A program made the translations under genes and the position numbers. Below, piece by piece: positions 17,647 to 30,700 of a stretch of DNA of 64,000 nt. The notes below the pieces were generated by a model that ran no database searches, had not been told where the DNA came from, and was given only the letters and a program-made list of their open reading frames with translations. How positions within the stretch are numbered: the stretch's first letter is position 1; the number at the start of each line of letters is the position of its first letter. Source of the stretch: Ruegeria atlantica (lineage in GTDB: Bacteria > Pseudomonadota > Alphaproteobacteria > Rhodobacterales > Rhodobacteraceae); the NCBI RefSeq assembly GCF_013032505.1, contig NZ_WQCG01000001.1:558001-622000 (forward strand), in the 5' to 3' direction.

Positions 17647-17778
17647 GCGTTATTCTCCTTTTGGAACCCGGTGGTAAGGGCTCTGCGTATCGACAAGCTG
17701 TGGTTGCCGCTCATTGCACGTGTCTCCGTCTCATTCAGTTCATTTGACGCATTTGCTGCCGTGCCGTTAGGCTGTGGC

Positions 17779-18507
17779 ATGCGCTTTGTTCTCTTGTGCC
17801 TGAGCCTGACGCTCTCTGCTACCCCCTCTTGGTCGCAAGAGGCGATTGGTCTTGCCGCACCAGACGAGGTTGCGGACTCCGGTCTGCTGCAACATATCCT
17901 TCCTCGCTTTTCTCTCAAGACCGGGATACGGGTTATTGCGGATAATGCGGGCGATTTGGTGCTGGAAACCACGCCTCCGGGTAGTCCTGTGTTCGCGCGC
18001 GATGGTGTCATCTATCACCTCCGGATCAGTGAAGACGCCAAACATGAACGGTTCCGCGACTGGCTGCTGTCCGACATTGGCAAACGGACGGTAGAGAGTT
18101 TTGCCCCCGAACAAGGTGCGCCCTTCTCGGCCAGTTTCGATATCGCGGCCACAGAGACCGAAACAGTGATCGACGGTGATACGTTGCGCGGCGAGGAATT
18201 GTCGATGACCCATTGCGGTCGGTGCCATGTGATCGGACCAAAAAACCGGATGAATGGTCTGGGATCGACGCCCTCTTTCGCGGTGCTGCGCGCCATGCCA
18301 GACTGGTCGGAAAGATTTGAGGCGTTCTTTGCCCTCAACCCGCACCCCGCCTTCACGCAGATTGACGGGCTGACCCCACCGTTTGATCCTCAGCGCCCAT
18401 CGCCCATCTATCCGGTTGAGATGACGCTGGACGATCTGGAAGCCATCCTAGCTTTTGTCTCGGTCATTACCGCGGCAGATTTGGGTGCGCCCTTACAGCT
18501 TCAGTGA
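17779..18507 (+). CDS. Cytochrome c protein with a shortened TupA-like N-terminal region
   Basis: A 242-residue exported protein. The ATG at 17779 opens a signal peptide (MRFVLLCLSLTLSATPSWSQ); the longer frame to 17671 does not. After cleavage, the segment SGLLQHILPRFSLKTGIRV matches SGLFDYILPWFEAETGIDV of the TupA protein encoded at 29885-30700, and FRDWLLSDIGKRTVESF matches TupA FIDWLIGPDGQTAIEAF, but the region between is much shorter. The TupA oxyanion loop STTST is replaced by APDEVA. A single heme c site follows, C146-G-R-C149-H150, with Met residues near the end as possible axial ligand. It converges with, and overlaps by 7 bases, the polyferredoxin gene. Confidence 0.8.
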   Translation: MRFVLLCLSLTLSATPSWSQEAIGLAAPDEVADSGLLQHILPRFSLKTGIRVIADNAGDLVLETTPPGSPVFARDGVIYHLRISEDAKHERFRDWLLSDIGKRTVESFAPEQGAPFSASFDIAATETETVIDGDTLRGEELSMTHCGRCHVIGPKNRMNGLGSTPSFAVLRAMPDWSERFEAFFALNPHPAFTQIDGLTPPFDPQRPSPIYPVEMTLDDLEAILAFVSVITAADLGAPLQLQ

Positions 18508-22820: not shown

Positions 22821-25715
22821 ATGCTTAGGAAAAAGACCAACGGGGTTGCGAGACGCCCCCAGCGGACAAGTATCCTGTCCCAGGTCGGCGAAAAAACCGT
22901 CGATCGCCGCGCATTCCTGCGTGGCTCGGGCCTGACGATCGGCGGCTTGGCCGCGATCAGCGCCACGGGTGGAACCGTGACGCCAGCCAGCGCCCAGACA
23001 GCAGCAAATCAGGCTGTCGAAAACATCAAATCCATATGCACCCACTGTTCGGTCGGCTGTACGGTCGTCGCCGAAGTGCAGAATGGCGTCTGGATCGGGC
23101 AAGAACCCGGTTGGGATAGCCCGTTCAACCTGGGTGCACATTGTGCCAAGGGGGCCGCAGTTCGCGAGCACGCCCATGGTGAACGCCGCCTGAAGTATCC
23201 GATGAAAAAGGAAGGCGGCGAATGGAAGCGCATCAGTTGGGAAGAGGCGATCAACGAGATCGGCGACGGCATGATGAGCATCCGCGAAGAATCTGGGCCA
23301 GACAGCGTCTATTGGCTGGGTTCTGCGAAGCATAACAACGAACAGGCCTACCTGTTCCGCAAGTTCGCCGCCTATTGGGGCACGAATAACGTGGACCATC
23401 AGGCCCGGATCTGCCACTCAACCACGGTTGCGGGTGTTGCGAACACATGGGGCTACGGCGCCATGACCAATTCGTATAACGACATCCACAACTCTCGGGC
23501 CATCTTCATCATCGGCGGCAACCCGGCCGAGGCACACCCTGTCTCGCTGCTGCACGTTCTGCGCGCGAAAGAGCAGAACAACGCGCCGCTGATCGTCTGC
23601 GACCCGCGCTTTACGCGCACCGCAGCGCATGCGGATGAATATGTCCGCTTCCGCCCCGGTACAGACGTTGCTTTGGTCTGGGGTATTCTGTGGCACATCT
23701 TCGACAACGGATGGGAGGACAAAGAGTTCATCCGCACCCGTGTCTGGGGCATGGACCAGATCCGTGAAGAGGTTGCCAAGTGGAACCCGGAAGAGGTTGA
23801 GCGTGTCACTGGCACACCAGGCTCACAGTTGAAGCGTGTTGCGCGCACCATGGCCAACAACCGTCCCGGTACGGTGATCTGGTGTATGGGCGGTACGCAG
23901 CACACCAACGGCAACAACAACACTCGCGCCTACTGCGTGCTCCAGCTTGCTCTGGGCAACATGGGTACTTCGGGTGGTGGCACCAACATCTTCCGCGGCC
24001 ATGATAACGTGCAGGGCGCAACGGATCTTGGTGTTTTGTCCCACACCCTGCCCGGCTACTATGGCCTGTCAAAAGGTGCATGGGGCCACTGGGCACGTGT
24101 CTGGGGTGAAGAACCCGAATGGCTTGCTGGCCAGTTCGCCACGATCAAGGACAAGGAAGGCAAGGACAAACCGCTTCAGAACGAACGCGGCATCCCTGTT
24201 TCCCGCTGGATCGACGGTGTTCTGGAAGACCCGGCGAACATGGATCAGGACAACAATGTCCGCGCCATGGTGCTGTGGGGCCACGCGCCCAACTCACAGA
24301 CCCGGATGACAGAAATGAAGACGGCGATGGAGAAGCTGGACATGCTGGTCGTGATCGACCCGTATCCCACCGTCTCGGCCGTTCTGCATGACCGCACCGA
24401 TGGCGTCTACCTGTTGCCCGCCTGTACGCAGTTCGAAACCCGTGGATCGGTCACGGCATCGAACCGGTCTTTGCAGTGGCGTGACAAGGTCGTGGAACCG
24501 CTGTTCGAAAGCCTGCCGGACGAGGTCATCATGGCCAAGTTCGCCAACAAGTTCGGCTGGGCGGATCGGTTCTTCCGCAATATCGAGATGGACGACCCTG
24601 AAACCCCGAATGTTGAAAGCATCACACGTGAATTCAACTCGGGTCTCTGGACCATCGGGTACACCGGTCAGTCACCGGAACGTTTGAAAAGCCACATGGC
24701 CAACCAGCATACGTTCGACAGAACCACGCTGCAGGCCATTGGTGGACCAAACGACGGCGAGTACTACGGTCTGCCCTGGCCCTGCTGGGGCACGGCAGAG
24801 ATGGGTCATACGGGGACACCAAACCTCTATGACATGTCGAAACCGGTGGCCGAAGGTGGCCTGACCTTCCGTGCCCGCTTTGGCGTGGAACGTGATGGCG
24901 ACAACCTGCTGGCCGAAGGGGTCTACAGCGCTGGATCGGAAATTCAGGATGGTTATCCCGAATTCACGATGCAGATGCTGATGGACCTTGGTTGGGACGG
25001 TGATCTGACCGCTGAAGAGCGGGCAGCAATCGACGCCGTTGCAGGACCGGAAACCAACTGGAAAACCGACTTGTCCGGCGGTATCCAGCGGGTCGCGATC
25101 GAGCATGGCTGTGCGCCCTTCGGGAACGCAAAGGCACGCGCGGTCGTCTGGACCTTCCCGGATCCGATCCCACTGCATCGCGAACCGCTTTATACACCGC
25201 GGCGCGATCTGGTGGAGGATTACCCGACCTACGAGGACCGTCAGGCTTATCGCCTGCCAACCCTTTATGCCTCGATCCAAAAGAACGACTTTTCAAAGGA
25301 TTACCCGATAATCCTGACGTCTGGTCGTCTGGTCGAATATGAAGGCGGCGGTGATGAGACACGGTCAAACCCGTGGCTGGCTGAGCTGCAGCAAGACATG
25401 TTCGTCGAGATCAATCCCCGCGATGCCAACAACCTTGGTATTCGTGACGGATCACAGGTCTGGGTCGAAGGTCCTGAGGGCGGCAAGGTCAAGGTGATGG
25501 CGATGCTGACCAACAGGGTCGGTGCCGGCGTGGCCTTCATGCCATTCCACTTTGGCGGCCATTTCCAGGGCGAAGACCAGCGGCACAAATACCCCGCCGG
25601 TGCAGACCCCTATGTGCTGGGTGAAAGTACCAACACCGCCCAGACGTATGGCTATGATTCAGTGACCCAGATGCAGGAGACCAAGTGTACTCTCTGCAAG
25701 ATCTCGGCAGCGTAA
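22821..25715 (+). CDS. fdhA: Formate dehydrogenase catalytic subunit (Tat-exported, W/Mo-bis-MGD)
   Basis: A 964-residue molybdopterin oxidoreductase oxidising formate to CO2. Start ATG has GGGAGGA upstream. Twin-arginine signal [11 protein letters not shown] near residues 31-41 directs it to the periplasmic side. One 4Fe-4S cluster is bound by CTHCSVGC and a later Cys in GAHCAKGA. The metal ligand is Cys198 in ARICHSTTV, in the place where some homologues have selenocysteine, followed by the catalytic His. The C-terminal molybdopterin dinucleotide-binding domain includes [17 protein letters not shown]. The nearby tupBCA operon suggests tungsten. Co-transcribed with fdhB and fdhC. Confidence 0.95.
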
Positions 25716-25726
25716 GGAGGACGAAA

Positions 25727-26320
25727 ATGGCTAGAGCAAAGTTTCTCTGCGACGCTGAACGCTGCATCGAGTGCAACGCCTGCGTAACCGCGTGTAAGAA
25801 TGAACACGAGGTGCCGTGGGGCATCAACCGCCGCAGGGTGGTGACGATCAATGACGGCAACCCGGGCGAACGTTCGATCTCGGTGGCCTGTATGCATTGT
25901 TCGGATGCGCCTTGCATGGCGGTGTGCCCGGTCGACTGCTTCTATCAGAACGAAGAAGGTGTCGTCCTGCACTCCAAAGACCTGTGCATTGGCTGTGGCT
26001 ATTGCTTCTATGCGTGCCCCTTCGGCGCGCCGCAATATCCACAGGCGGGTAACTTCGGATCGCGCGGCAAGATGGACAAATGTACCTTCTGCGCTGGTGG
26101 TCCCGAAGAAAACAACTCGACCGCAGAGTTCGCAAAATATGGTCGCAACCGGATCGCCGAGGGCAAACTGCCCATCTGCGCCGAGATGTGTTCCACCAAG
26201 GCCCTGCTCGCCGGTGACGGTGACGTGGTGTCGGCCATCTACCGCGAGCGCGTCGTCGCGCGCGGGTTTGGCTCGGGCGCCTGGGGTTGGGGCACGGCCT
26301 ACGACCAGAAAGACGGCTAA
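25727..26320 (+). CDS. fdhB: Formate dehydrogenase iron-sulfur subunit (FDH3 beta type)
   Basis: A 197-residue ferredoxin-like subunit carrying electrons from FdhA toward the membrane subunit. Four cluster motifs typical of DmsB/FdnH-like proteins: [38 protein letters not shown], and the fourth formed by CTFC with CAEMC. The ATG at 25727 follows AAGGAGG, which overlaps the end of fdhA. No C-terminal membrane helix is present, unlike E. coli FdnH, so it must dock to FdhC by contacts alone. Confidence 0.94.
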
Positions 26321-27605: not shown

Positions 27606-28868
27606 ATGCGCAAGCTGGTTCTGGCACTGGCGCTGCTGCCCCTGCCCGCGATGGCCGAGTTCTTCACTCTTAAAGGCCACGGCGGGCCCATCATGGGGAT
27701 CGCCACCGCGCCAGACGGTCGGATCGCAACAGCAAGTTTTGACAACTCGGTTGGCATATGGACCGGGCAATCGCCGAAATGGCTGGAAGGCCACGAGGCC
27801 GCAGTCAATTCCGTCGTATTCAACGGTACCGCGATCTATTCGGCTGGGGATGATTTTACCCTGCGCAAATGGCCTGGCGGTCAGATTGTTGGTCAGCACA
27901 AAGGCAAGATTGTAGGCGTCGCCGCGTCGAAGACCCATGTGGCAACGGCCAGTTGGGATGGGACCATCGGGCTGTGGCCGGTCGATGGCTCGGCGCCGTC
28001 GATGCTCGGGCCGACTGGAAGCGGTGTGAATGCCGTCGAATTCTCTGCAGACGGTTCGGAACTGTATTCCGCAGGTATCGATGGTTCACTGCGCATATGG
28101 GACGTTGCCAGCGGACAGGAAACGAACCGGTTCGTGGAACACGGATTTGGCATCAATGAGCTGGCACTGAACGAACAGGACAACTGGATTGCGTACGGCG
28201 CGGTTGATGGCGTCACCCGCATCCTCGACCTGACAACTGGCGACGAACGTGATTTCACTTTGGAACGCCGACCGATCCTTGCCTTGGCGCTCAGCCCGGA
28301 TCGCAGCATGTTGGCCGTCGGAGACGGCGAAGGCTATATTATGATGATAGACACGGTCGAATGGCGCATCGCACAGGATTTCAGAGCGACCTTACGTGGC
28401 CCGGTCTGGGCATTGGCCTTTTCCACTGACGGGCAAAACTTGCATGCGGGCGGTATTGACGAGGCCATGTATAGCTGGCCAGTCGCTGCGCTGGGAGATC
28501 AGGAACAGATGGCTGCGGCTGAACCCAGCTTTTTGAAAGATCCCGAGGAAATGGAAAACGGTGAACGTCAGTTCGCCCGCAAATGTTCGATCTGCCATAG
28601 CCTGACCCCGGATGGCCAACGCCGGGCAGGTCCGACGCTCCACGGTGTGTTCGGGCGCAAAGCAGGTACCCTACGGGGATATTTTTACTCGGATACGCTG
28701 CAAGACTCTGATATCATTTGGAATGAAGAAACGATAAACGCTCTTTTTGACGAAGGGCCGGACCACTACATTCCGGGGTCGAAGATGCCGATGCAACGGA
28801 TCACTCAGCCTCAGGATCGGGACGACCTGATCGCCTTTCTGCGCCGCGCCACGATGCCAGAAAATTGA
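27606..28868 (+). CDS. Exported WD40-repeat cytochrome c fusion
   Basis: A 420-residue periplasmic protein. Signal peptide MRKLVLALALLPLPAMA; then about seven WD40-like blades (residues 20-295) starting FFTLKGHGGPIMGIATAPDGR with several D-x-S-x-x-x-W-type strands; then a class I cytochrome c domain with C327-S-I-C330-H331 and a PGSKM394-P-M396 axial-methionine loop. It starts on the base after the fdhC stop, so it is translated with the dehydrogenase and may be an alternative electron acceptor or docking protein for the complex. The combination is unusual among FDH accessory proteins. Confidence 0.88.
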   Translation: MRKLVLALALLPLPAMAEFFTLKGHGGPIMGIATAPDGRIATASFDNSVGIWTGQSPKWLEGHEAAVNSVVFNGTAIYSAGDDFTLRKWPGGQIVGQHKGKIVGVAASKTHVATASWDGTIGLWPVDGSAPSMLGPTGSGVNAVEFSADGSELYSAGIDGSLRIWDVASGQETNRFVEHGFGINELALNEQDNWIAYGAVDGVTRILDLTTGDERDFTLERRPILALALSPDRSMLAVGDGEGYIMMIDTVEWRIAQDFRATLRGPVWALAFSTDGQNLHAGGIDEAMYSWPVAALGDQEQMAAAEPSFLKDPEEMENGERQFARKCSICHSLTPDGQRRAGPTLHGVFGRKAGTLRGYFYSDTLQDSDIIWNEETINALFDEGPDHYIPGSKMPMQRITQPQDRDDLIAFLRRATMPEN

Positions 28869-29007: not shown

Positions 29008-29880
29008 ATGTCCGAATACTTGACCACCAAAGAACTGGCCGATCTCCTGCGCATTGGCGAGCGAAAGGCCTATGACCTGGCTTCATCGGGTGAGGTGCCG
29101 TGTGTGCGCGCTATGGGCAAGTTGCTTTTTCCGCGGGCCGAGGTGATTGCATGGCTGAACGCCTCGCGATCTGGCCCGGAAGTGGCCGAACCGCCCCTGC
29201 CCCCGATTGTCGCTGGCAGTCACGATCCGCTGCTGGACTGGGCGCTGCGCGAAAGCGGATCAGGCCTGGCGACATATTACGATGGCTCATTCGATGGGCT
29301 AACCCGGCTAAAAGATCGAAACGCACAGGCAGCAGCGCTGCACATTCATGAGGATGCCGGTTTTAACACCCGGACGCTTCAGGACACTTTGGGTGAGGCT
29401 CCGGTCGTTCTGTTTGAAATTGCTCATCGCCAGCGTGGTTTGCTGCTGGCGCCAGGCACGTCGGATATTCAGGGATTTGAACAGCTAAAAGGTCGACGTG
29501 TAATCCTGCGCCAGGACAGCGCCGCCAGCCAAAGACTGTTCGACGCCCAACTGGAAGCCCATGGTTTGACGCGCGAAGATCTGGAAGCCCTGCCCACCTG
29601 TGCCCGCACCGAGGAAGAGCTGGCAATCGCCCTGCATGATAGCAAAGCCGAGGTCGGGTTCGGGTTGGGTGCATTGGCCGGACTTTACGATCTGGAATTT
29701 GTCCCGACACATTCGGAACGCCTGGACCTGGCGATCTGGCGAAGAGCTTACTTTGATGACCCAATGCTGAAGTTGCTCAGCTTTGTACAATCCGACCGGT
29801 TCCTGAACCGCGCCAATGAGTTTGGCGGCTACGACCTGTCCGGTCTGGGAACAATCCACCACAATGGCGCCAGCGGGTAG
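29008..29880 (+). CDS. Excisionase-type HTH regulator with periplasmic-binding-like sensor domain
   Basis: A 290-residue one-component regulator. Residues 1-50 form an excisionase/MerR-like winged helix: YLTTKELADLLRIGERKAYD then PRAEVIAWLN. Residues about 70-290 resemble a PBP-like domain, as in proteins that sense molybdate or tungstate (the same fold as TupA/ModA). The last gene of the formate dehydrogenase operon, it faces tupA tail to tail with four bases between. I infer that it senses an oxyanion or cofactor state and controls fdh and tup; palindromes at 20618 and 32181 are candidate targets. Confidence 0.82.
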   Translation: MSEYLTTKELADLLRIGERKAYDLASSGEVPCVRAMGKLLFPRAEVIAWLNASRSGPEVAEPPLPPIVAGSHDPLLDWALRESGSGLATYYDGSFDGLTRLKDRNAQAAALHIHEDAGFNTRTLQDTLGEAPVVLFEIAHRQRGLLLAPGTSDIQGFEQLKGRRVILRQDSAASQRLFDAQLEAHGLTREDLEALPTCARTEEELAIALHDSKAEVGFGLGALAGLYDLEFVPTHSERLDLAIWRRAYFDDPMLKLLSFVQSDRFLNRANEFGGYDLSGLGTIHHNGASG

Positions 29881-29884
29881 TTTC

Positions 29885-30700
29885 CTATTTTGCGTTCGGA
29901 AAGAACAACTGATTGCCATTCAACTTAAAGGCCTCAATTGCGGTTTGCCCGTCCGGACCGATCAACCAATCTATGAACCGCTGCCCCGCAGCTGCGCGAA
30001 CACCCGCATGTTTTTCGGGATTCACCAGAATGACGCCGTATTGGTTAAACAAGCGCGGATCACCTTCGACCAAAACCTCAAGGTTCCCCCGGTTTCCAAA
30101 GGATTCCCACGTCGCCCGATCCGTCAGCGCATAAGCGTCCATGCCACTGGCCACGTTCAACGTCGCGCCCATGCCTGAACCTGTCTCGCGGTACCATGTG
30201 CCCGATTCCGCTGTGGGGTCTACACCGGCGTCGCCCCAGTGGCGCATTTCAGCCTTATGGGTACCACTGTCATCCCCACGAGACGCAAAAGGAACTGCCG
30301 CTTCGGATACTGCCGTCAAGGCGGCCACAATGTCCGAACCGCCTTTCACCTTGGCTGGGTCTGATTTAGGCCCGACAAGGACAAAGTCATTGTACATCAC
30401 GTCGAACCGTTCAACGCCCCACCCGTCTTTGACAAACTGCTCTTCATCAGCCGTTGCATGGACCAGCAGAACATCCCCATCGCCGTTGATCGCATTTCGG
30501 ATCGCCTGCCCGGTGCCGACAGCCACAACGCGCACGTCGATCCCGGTTTCCGCTTCAAACCAAGGAAGGATGTAGTCGAACAGCCCCGAATTTTGGGTCG
30601 ACGTTGTTGATTGTACGACGATAAACGGCTCTTCGGCCGAGGCCGAACCTGCAATCAGGCCAAGGGAAACCAATGCTGCCCGAACGAAATTCCGGATCAT
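29885..30700 (-). CDS. tupA: Tungstate ABC transporter, substrate-binding protein
   Basis: A 271-residue periplasmic binding protein. Signal peptide MIRNFVRAALVSLGLIAGSASA, then QSTTSTQNSGLFDYILPWF, the TTTS-type loop diagnostic of TupA, and later SRGDDSGTHKAE, the second anion-binding loop. The family binds tungstate far more tightly than molybdate, though specificity cannot be proven by eye. GGAG precedes the ATG. Third gene of the order tupB-tupC-tupA, next to a formate dehydrogenase, which makes supply of tungsten for FdhA the likely purpose. Confidence 0.93.
   Translation of the reverse strand: MIRNFVRAALVSLGLIAGSASAEEPFIVVQSTTSTQNSGLFDYILPWFEAETGIDVRVVAVGTGQAIRNAINGDGDVLLVHATADEEQFVKDGWGVERFDVMYNDFVLVGPKSDPAKVKGGSDIVAALTAVSEAAVPFASRGDDSGTHKAEMRHWGDAGVDPTAESGTWYRETGSGMGATLNVASGMDAYALTDRATWESFGNRGNLEVLVEGDPRLFNQYGVILVNPEKHAGVRAAAGQRFIDWLIGPDGQTAIEAFKLNGNQLFFPNAK

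Follow-up and report, generated by a model that had tools for sequence, protein, structure and literature searches.

A heme c protein with one TupA lobe adjoins formate dehydrogenase genes in many marine bacteria

An exported heme protein with one lobe of the tungstate-binding protein TupA adjoins formate dehydrogenase (FDH) genes in many marine bacteria. A two-lobed binding protein has apparently been cut to one lobe, re-used on a redox protein and kept across many genera. The gene described here lies in a 64,000-nucleotide stretch of Ruegeria atlantica DNA (the window), and its open reading frame, its putative signal peptide, its CGRCH motif and two TupA-like stretches were found where a first-pass annotation had placed them. 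RefSeq calls its relatives 'hypothetical protein' or 'c-type cytochrome', and the nearest named ones are from Ruegeria (L091, 96% identical). With the whole window protein as query, no NCBIfam family is found at E<=0.1, NF041772 included. The features of the gene, and those elsewhere in the window with which it is considered, are:

17779..18507, + strand: half-TupA / cytochrome c gene, 242 aa (open reading frame and translation)
17779..17838, + strand: putative signal peptide, residues 1-20, cleavage near S19/Q20 (inspection)
17839..18141, + strand: predicted single-lobe TupA-like domain (PBP type II, lobe A), residues 21-121 (hhalign, PDB profile search, AlphaFold, structural alignment)
17857..17874, + strand: APDEVA, at the place of the TupA STTST anion loop (alignment register)
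17905..17919, + strand: R43-F-S-L-K47, basic pair on helix 1 (conserved in members, not in TupA)
18175..18504, + strand: mono-heme cytochrome c domain, residues 133-242 (Pfam Cytochrom_C, AlphaFold model)
18214..18228, + strand: CGRCH heme c attachment site, residues 146-150 (sequence; conservation)
18343..18345, + strand: His189, candidate distal heme ligand (invariant, 70/70 aligned members)
22821..25715, + strand: formate dehydrogenase alpha subunit, FDH3-type system (TIGR01591 483 bits, cut-off 666)
25685..26320, + strand: FDH3 beta subunit (NF038355 343 bits, cut-off 240)
29885..30700, - strand: tupA, the full two-lobed tungstate-binding protein, for comparison (NF041772, Pfam)

The translation begins, on inspection, with MR, a hydrophobic stretch and SWS/Q, and with such a Sec-like signal peptide the 242-aa protein is most likely exported and periplasmic. 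The window's TupA (222 bits to NF041772, under the model cut-off of 400; Pfam PBP_like_2 E 7e-45) is encoded 11.4 kb downstream of the half-TupA gene, near the 12 kb first given. In a single pairwise BLASTP comparison the two proteins share two collinear local matches, E 3e-5 and 1e-3; against the whole of its own genome the window protein matches TupA with an E of just 0.44. Its N-domain alone has no match in Pfam, and 5 of 48 member N-domains match Pfam SBP_bac_11 (best E 1.6e-4).

The evidence for homology comes mainly from profiles. One was built from these 48 members, the window's included (2 of 50 member proteins, having the heme domain only, were left out), the other from 33 TupA rows, the window's plus those of fetched loci. 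By hhalign, the N-half of the N-domain profile matches positions 5-38 of the TupA model (probability 95.7, score 48.4) and the C-half positions 217-247 (probability 97.2, score 59.6), in the correct order. In 100 column shuffles per half the score never exceeded 16.7 for the N-half or 17.5 for the C-half, and the probability never exceeded 1.9 or 2.7, respectively; 100 whole-domain shuffles stayed within a score of 20.4 and a probability of 3.1. For the whole N-domain, local mode aligns the C-block alone (97.8) and global mode reaches 98.4; the N-block of the match becomes visible in global mode or once each half is aligned on its own. The two N-terminal stretches initially said to match TupA are thus borne out as matches of both halves to TupA's ends, with shuffles far lower, and the significant profile match to the periplasmic-binding fold, on which the idea had been staked beforehand, is there.

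Searching the PDB with the N-domain profile (A1) gives as its top four 3muq (1e-6), 5my5 (9e-6), 3cvg (2e-4) and 3lr1 (0.0028), all TupA-type; 5my5 is D. alaskensis TupA and 3lr1 a Geobacter tungstate-binding protein. The fifth row is an unrelated plant RNase P (0.003). Applied to 289 class genomes (best candidates scored, at most 17 per genome) the same profile yields at least 125 matches, 5 to family members and 120 to frames of 271 aa or more. Among the matches listed, of 41 N-pieces 37 are followed on the same strand by a C-piece lying 123-164 residues downstream, and the five loci checked all hold TupA (6 frames, phmmer 307-350 bits to the window's TupA). In the protein's own genome, three other binding-protein loci, of seven found, are unmatched by the profile at E<=10.

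An AlphaFold2 model, with 60 sequences from the window and related loci as input, has a pLDDT of ~95 over mature residues 1-100, lower values in the heme part and a pTM of 0.51. Foldseek places 3muq (E 0.008) and 5my5 (E 0.044) at the top and returns nothing for the N-domain model at E<=0.001. Upon re-alignment of the Foldseek candidates 5my5 comes first (Z 13.4, 2.2 A, 101 residues; model 1-101, chain 3-251), followed by 3cvg (Z 11.8), 3muq (11.5), 3kn3 (11.0) and proteins of ModA/PstS type (~10). In D. alaskensis TupA, lobe A comprises A2-R76 and Y201-E251 and lobe B A91-Q200, in the available text of PMC5517513. Because the model aligns to lobe A as that published structure defines the lobes, the N-domain is taken as lobe A without lobe B; the superposition, at Z 13.4, was the outcome of the structure prediction that had been proposed, and an unrelated fold was not seen. 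Residues 21-121 are predicted (pLDDT ~95, aligned to TupA) to fold as one PBP lobe standing alone. Across the 48 members the N-domain measures 95-134 aa versus 249 match columns for mature TupA, and in the window protein residues 22-116 (95 residues) span TupA 26-266 (241), about 146 fewer, close to the 150 or so reported missing. Alignment and model together show lobe B to be missing, with TupA's two end parts joined directly.

The same source (PMC5517513, in its available text) puts the TTTS of D. alaskensis TupA in lobe A and R118, T124 and D170 opposite it in lobe B, and states that R118E abolishes binding. TT[ST] occurs in 0/48 family N-domains versus 31/33 TupA rows, and RGD[DN]SGT, with the R118-type residue, in 0/48 versus 28/33. 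The replacement of STTST by APDEVA noticed in the window protein keeps its register in the family alignment, where the segment is variable, often A-P-x-x, and has no invariant polar residue in the 48 members. From the missing residues we infer that the lobe has lost tungstate binding. The N-domain has acquired features of its own: P42, R43, F44 and W95 are found in 48/48 members and K47 in 47/48, and R43 and K47 are conserved in the half-TupA family, not in TupA. Of the earlier description, a TupA remnant joined to a heme domain, the fusion therefore stands and the remnant does not, as what is present is a conserved single lobe with invariant residues of its own and not a degenerate one. The lobe is more variable than the heme domain, mean column identity being 59% (A5, 39 rows) versus 73% (A6, 59 rows).

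CGRCH is the sole heme c motif of the protein, and the CxxCH heme domain first described is real: C146, C149 and H150 are kept in 70/70 aligned members. Pfam Cytochrom_C (PF00034) matches 59 of 59 A6 members at E<=1 (best 5.5e-6, window member 0.0015), with 17.8 bits for the window protein and 20.2 for its heme part alone against a cut-off of 21.3. A separate heme-domain model has a mean pLDDT of 78 and its best structural match is to a Kuenenia diheme cytochrome (Z 6.7); matches this weak (Z<=6.7) do not allow the domain to be placed in a particular cytochrome family. There is no conserved Met column in the 70 heme domains (residue 158 is Met in 45, residue 170 in 23 and residue 215 in 20). 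His189 is present in all 70 (56/56 fused, 14/14 heme-only), and we infer that the heme may be His/His-ligated (H150/H189) or have open coordination. As the cytochrome part is modelled just moderately, it is conservation alone that puts His189 forward as distal ligand.

The alpha subunit of the neighbouring formate dehydrogenase has a twin-arginine signal, RRAFLRGSG, and should therefore be periplasmic. The half-TupA gene stands singly between the Mrp and 4Fe-4S (Fe4S) genes, outside the fdh operon; the accessory neighbours are Mrp/NBP35, a biotin/lipoate ligase-like protein (BPL), DUF6505, the 4Fe-4S protein, DUF3305/3306 and TorD. A pattern scan of the genome contig collection gave 335 relatives, the best 80 of which were used for loci. 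Of the 79 loci that have all three genes, 78 show the order Mrp(-), half-TupA gene(+), Fe4S protein(-), so that the position of the gene in the FDH3-type locus is fixed, and FdhA is found in 77/80 (both for the best 80 of 335). TupA appears in 0/80, because in the window tupA falls outside the 10 kb flank.

Some details of this arrangement may be recorded. The half-TupA gene and the 4Fe-4S protein gene, which is convergent with it, share 7 bases at their stop ends (18501-18507), and in 67 of 78 related loci these two frames directly abut by their ends. A small DUF6494 gene sits between the Mrp and half-TupA genes in three loci (L049-L051); the corresponding interval of the window, 17647-17778, is just 132 bases.

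Sampling of 295 genomes of the host's family gave 111 with a match at E<=1e-3. Six of the 111 have weak matches to TupA-size frames alone and two (G004, G054) the heme domain only, and both domains are present in 103/295 (4 of the 103 settled by reading sequences). Because of this spread, and its fixed place in an FDH3-type locus, the half-TupA protein is regarded as conserved and not decaying. When 80 genomes were tested for family member, TupA and FDH3 beta, 33 carried a family member (2 of them heme-only), 33/33 of these had TupA and 32/33 had FDH3 beta over cut-off; TupA is present in each of the 41 genomes whose FDH3 beta exceeds the cut-off. Fisher p values for the co-occurrence, which ignore the kinship of genomes, range from 4e-13 to 2e-7. 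Nine FDH3 genomes among the 80 have no family member. Four of these (G071, G038, G013, G006) have Fe4S, Mrp, BPL and DUF6505 in order and lack only the half-TupA gene from the Fe4S-Mrp interval (the G013 Fe4S gene being divided into two frames), and the other five have FDH loci that are less similar or incompletely covered. Since four genomes keep the locus without the gene, the half-TupA cytochrome is accessory to that FDH and not required for it. Loci L235, L236, L242 and L243 are FDH3 loci with the accessory set and no half-TupA cytochrome between Fe4S and Mrp.

Relatives that consist of the heme domain alone bear on the origin of the fusion. In whole-protein profile searches of 385 genomes of the class and 398 of the phylum (best candidates scored, at most 7 per genome), both domains were found outside the host's family in G579 and G656 alone, among the matches listed for the class. 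The heme domain alone was found, among the matches listed, in G389, G594, G295, G671, G372, G400, G669 and G476 for the class and in G904 and G711 for the phylum. The fused form is also present in Roseibium (L161, L162, within the best 80 of 335 relatives). A midpoint-rooted tree of the 70 heme domains (113 columns, 70 rows; bootstrap not settled, 26 of 67 inner branches open) draws ten heme-only rows as one outgroup clade, support 96/89, and because the heme-only relatives form an outgroup the cytochrome probably existed before the TupA lobe was joined to it. Heme-only L206 and L219, and probably L218, are placed among fused rows, where the lobe looks to have been lost. L218, L220 and L221 have long branches, the position of L221 beside L051 is distrusted, and fused rows L026 and L037 join the heme-only clade at a support of 7, an unresolved placement. 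Of 14 heme-only loci, 8 have FDH, accessory or tup genes within ~10 kb and 6 have none, L218 and L219 lying outside any FDH locus. In L207 and L209 the cytochrome is divergent from tupA at ~0.9 kb, in L215 it is upstream of tupC-tupB-tupA and in L211 next to the regulator beside tupA. The simplest story would be that a TupA lobe was acquired once by a tungsten/FDH-linked cytochrome and afterwards lost in places, on an alignment too short to prove a single gain.

A full-length TupA-cytochrome fusion was looked for and rejected (0 of the 50 family proteins inspected). Four genomes, G244, G168, G140 and G265, had split or partial matches hinting at one, but these proved to be longer single-lobe forms. 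In one long member, L033, HMMER aligns a longer middle stretch to TupA 4-81 in one piece. When the extra stretches were tested alone, shuffles equalled or exceeded the real score in 1 of 200 cases for L033, 7 for L041 and 29 for L034; the L032 score falls under the lower bound of all 158 reported shuffles and L035 has no match. With the extra stretch standing out in one of five long members, the idea of an intermediate form is suggestive at best. Nor was a separate half-PBP gene found: in the neighbourhood loci the N-domain profile matches, besides the cytochrome itself, TupA frames only, and there is none among the matches listed in the class search (best 17 or fewer candidates per genome).

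On balance we favour, with some reserve, a role for the protein as a periplasmic mono-heme c accessory of the neighbouring FDH3-type formate dehydrogenase, with the ligand-blind lobe A as its docking module. To the homology, predicted fold, loss of anion motifs, conserved locus and heme site documented above, this adds docking and an electron path, for which the following is proposed. Lobe A, no longer binding tungstate, would act as a protein-docking module, perhaps via the new invariant basic pair R43 and K47, and so set the heme beside a periplasmic partner, which may be FDH or the tungstate permease. The heme would then move electrons from or to FDH on the periplasmic side. The path would be accessory only, because several genomes keep the locus without the half-TupA gene. 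FDH3 of M. extorquens is probably cytochrome-linked, though the texts consulted gave no confirmation. In evolutionary terms an FDH-linked cytochrome would have come first, with the TupA lobe fused later and lost again in a few lineages. A strict docking surface is weakly supported, since the N-domain is the more variable of the two domains.

The same variability suits a lobe that is just a passive stabilising cap left by accidental fusion, with no partner, as do the existence of heme-only relatives and the apparent loss of the lobe in L206, L218 and L219. However, the lobe is kept in 103/295 genomes, P42, R43, F44 and W95 are invariant in 48 members and R43 and K47 are new with respect to TupA, so that a cap seems quite unlikely. 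Resemblance to TupA by chance, of short helices in an unrelated alpha/beta domain, could draw on the own-genome E of 0.44, the missing Pfam match of the window N-domain and the lack of Foldseek matches at E<=0.001, but profile, fold and genome-wide tests lead to TupA, five of 48 members match SBP_bac_11 (best E 1.6e-4), and given the column shuffles and the genome-wide search it is very unlikely, to the point of being negligible.

More substantial is the alternative of a maturation or metal-supply factor for a W/Mo FDH, whose lobe would recognise an FDH subunit or the TupBC permease and whose heme would be a redox switch. The gene is among accessory genes, 4 of 14 heme-only loci (L207, L209, L211, L215) are near tup genes and TupA is present in 41 of 41 genomes whose FDH3 beta passes the cut-off. 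Set against this, four genomes keep the accessory set without the half-TupA gene, and cofactor insertion into Tat-exported enzymes takes place in the cytoplasm, whereas the signal peptide here looks Sec-like on inspection; we consider it unlikely. A half-TupA lobe serving as an oxyanion or small-ligand sensor on its former cleft side, its ligand state altering the heme or the heme gating binding, has parallels in that the ligand contacts of type II PBPs are often mostly in one lobe, chiefly the discontinuous one, the kind kept here, and that in LAO, ArgBP or HisJ one lobe by itself is able to bind ligand (available text of PMC10601554). The absence of TT[ST] in 48/48, a variable replacement segment with no invariant polar residue and the location in the missing part of the three lobe-B contacts named in the available text of PMC5517513 make a sensor unlikely. 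Finally, the lobe might dock on TupBC (or self-pair into a two-lobed clamp), with the redox state of the heme gating tungstate uptake or coupling it to FDH. That is a long shot, but if true a transporter's binding-protein lobe would have been turned into a redox-controlled plug or adapter.

No published description of a half-TupA/heme fusion was found in the open-access literature, in agreement with the first-pass annotation, which knew of no described protein of such build. The closest known systems each share a part of it. TupA (5my5 of D. alaskensis, 3lr1 of Geobacter) has the same lobe A fold, both terminal sequence blocks and export, and the half-TupA protein co-occurs with FDH and with TupA-carrying genomes; unlike TupA, it is without lobe B (A91-Q200 of 5my5), TTTS and R118/T124/D170, and has a heme c domain. 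The heme-only relatives (L206-L215 and L218-L221, of other Alphaproteobacteria) have a homologous heme domain with CxxCH, PSF and PH, but no TupA lobe. Class I c-type cytochromes (PF00034) share CxxCH and a similar helix arrangement (best Z 6.7), whereas the half-TupA family has no conserved Met and an invariant His189. A single-lobe substrate-binding protein of Rhodothermus marinus (Bae 2018, cited in PMC10601554) and isolated halves of ribose-binding protein (PMC10601554) are likewise PBPs cut to one alpha/beta lobe, but in the available text of that source TupA descent is not shown for them and no fused heme domain is mentioned. As single-lobe binding proteins are already known, what is new is that the lobe descends from TupA and is fused to a heme domain. 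It bears on the evolution and repurposing of periplasmic binding proteins. The half-TupA protein also gives the FDH3-type formate dehydrogenase system in marine alphaproteobacteria a further, uncharacterised component and opens the testable question of whether tungsten supply is physically coupled to formate oxidation.

Three further observations concern the surroundings of these genes. After FDH gamma, at 27606-28868 (+), a 420-aa protein, another unusual fused cytochrome, has on inspection N-terminal WD/beta-propeller-like repeats followed by one CSICH heme domain, and is present in 70/80 loci (best 80 of 335). A probable regulator beside tupA, at 29008-29880 (+), combines HTH_17 with PBP_like (PF12727, E 1e-39), a second re-use of a binding-protein fold adjoining the tungstate transporter. 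In another locus (L230, G310:C48), two TupA-type frames, of 560 and 366 aa, are consecutive on the same strand.
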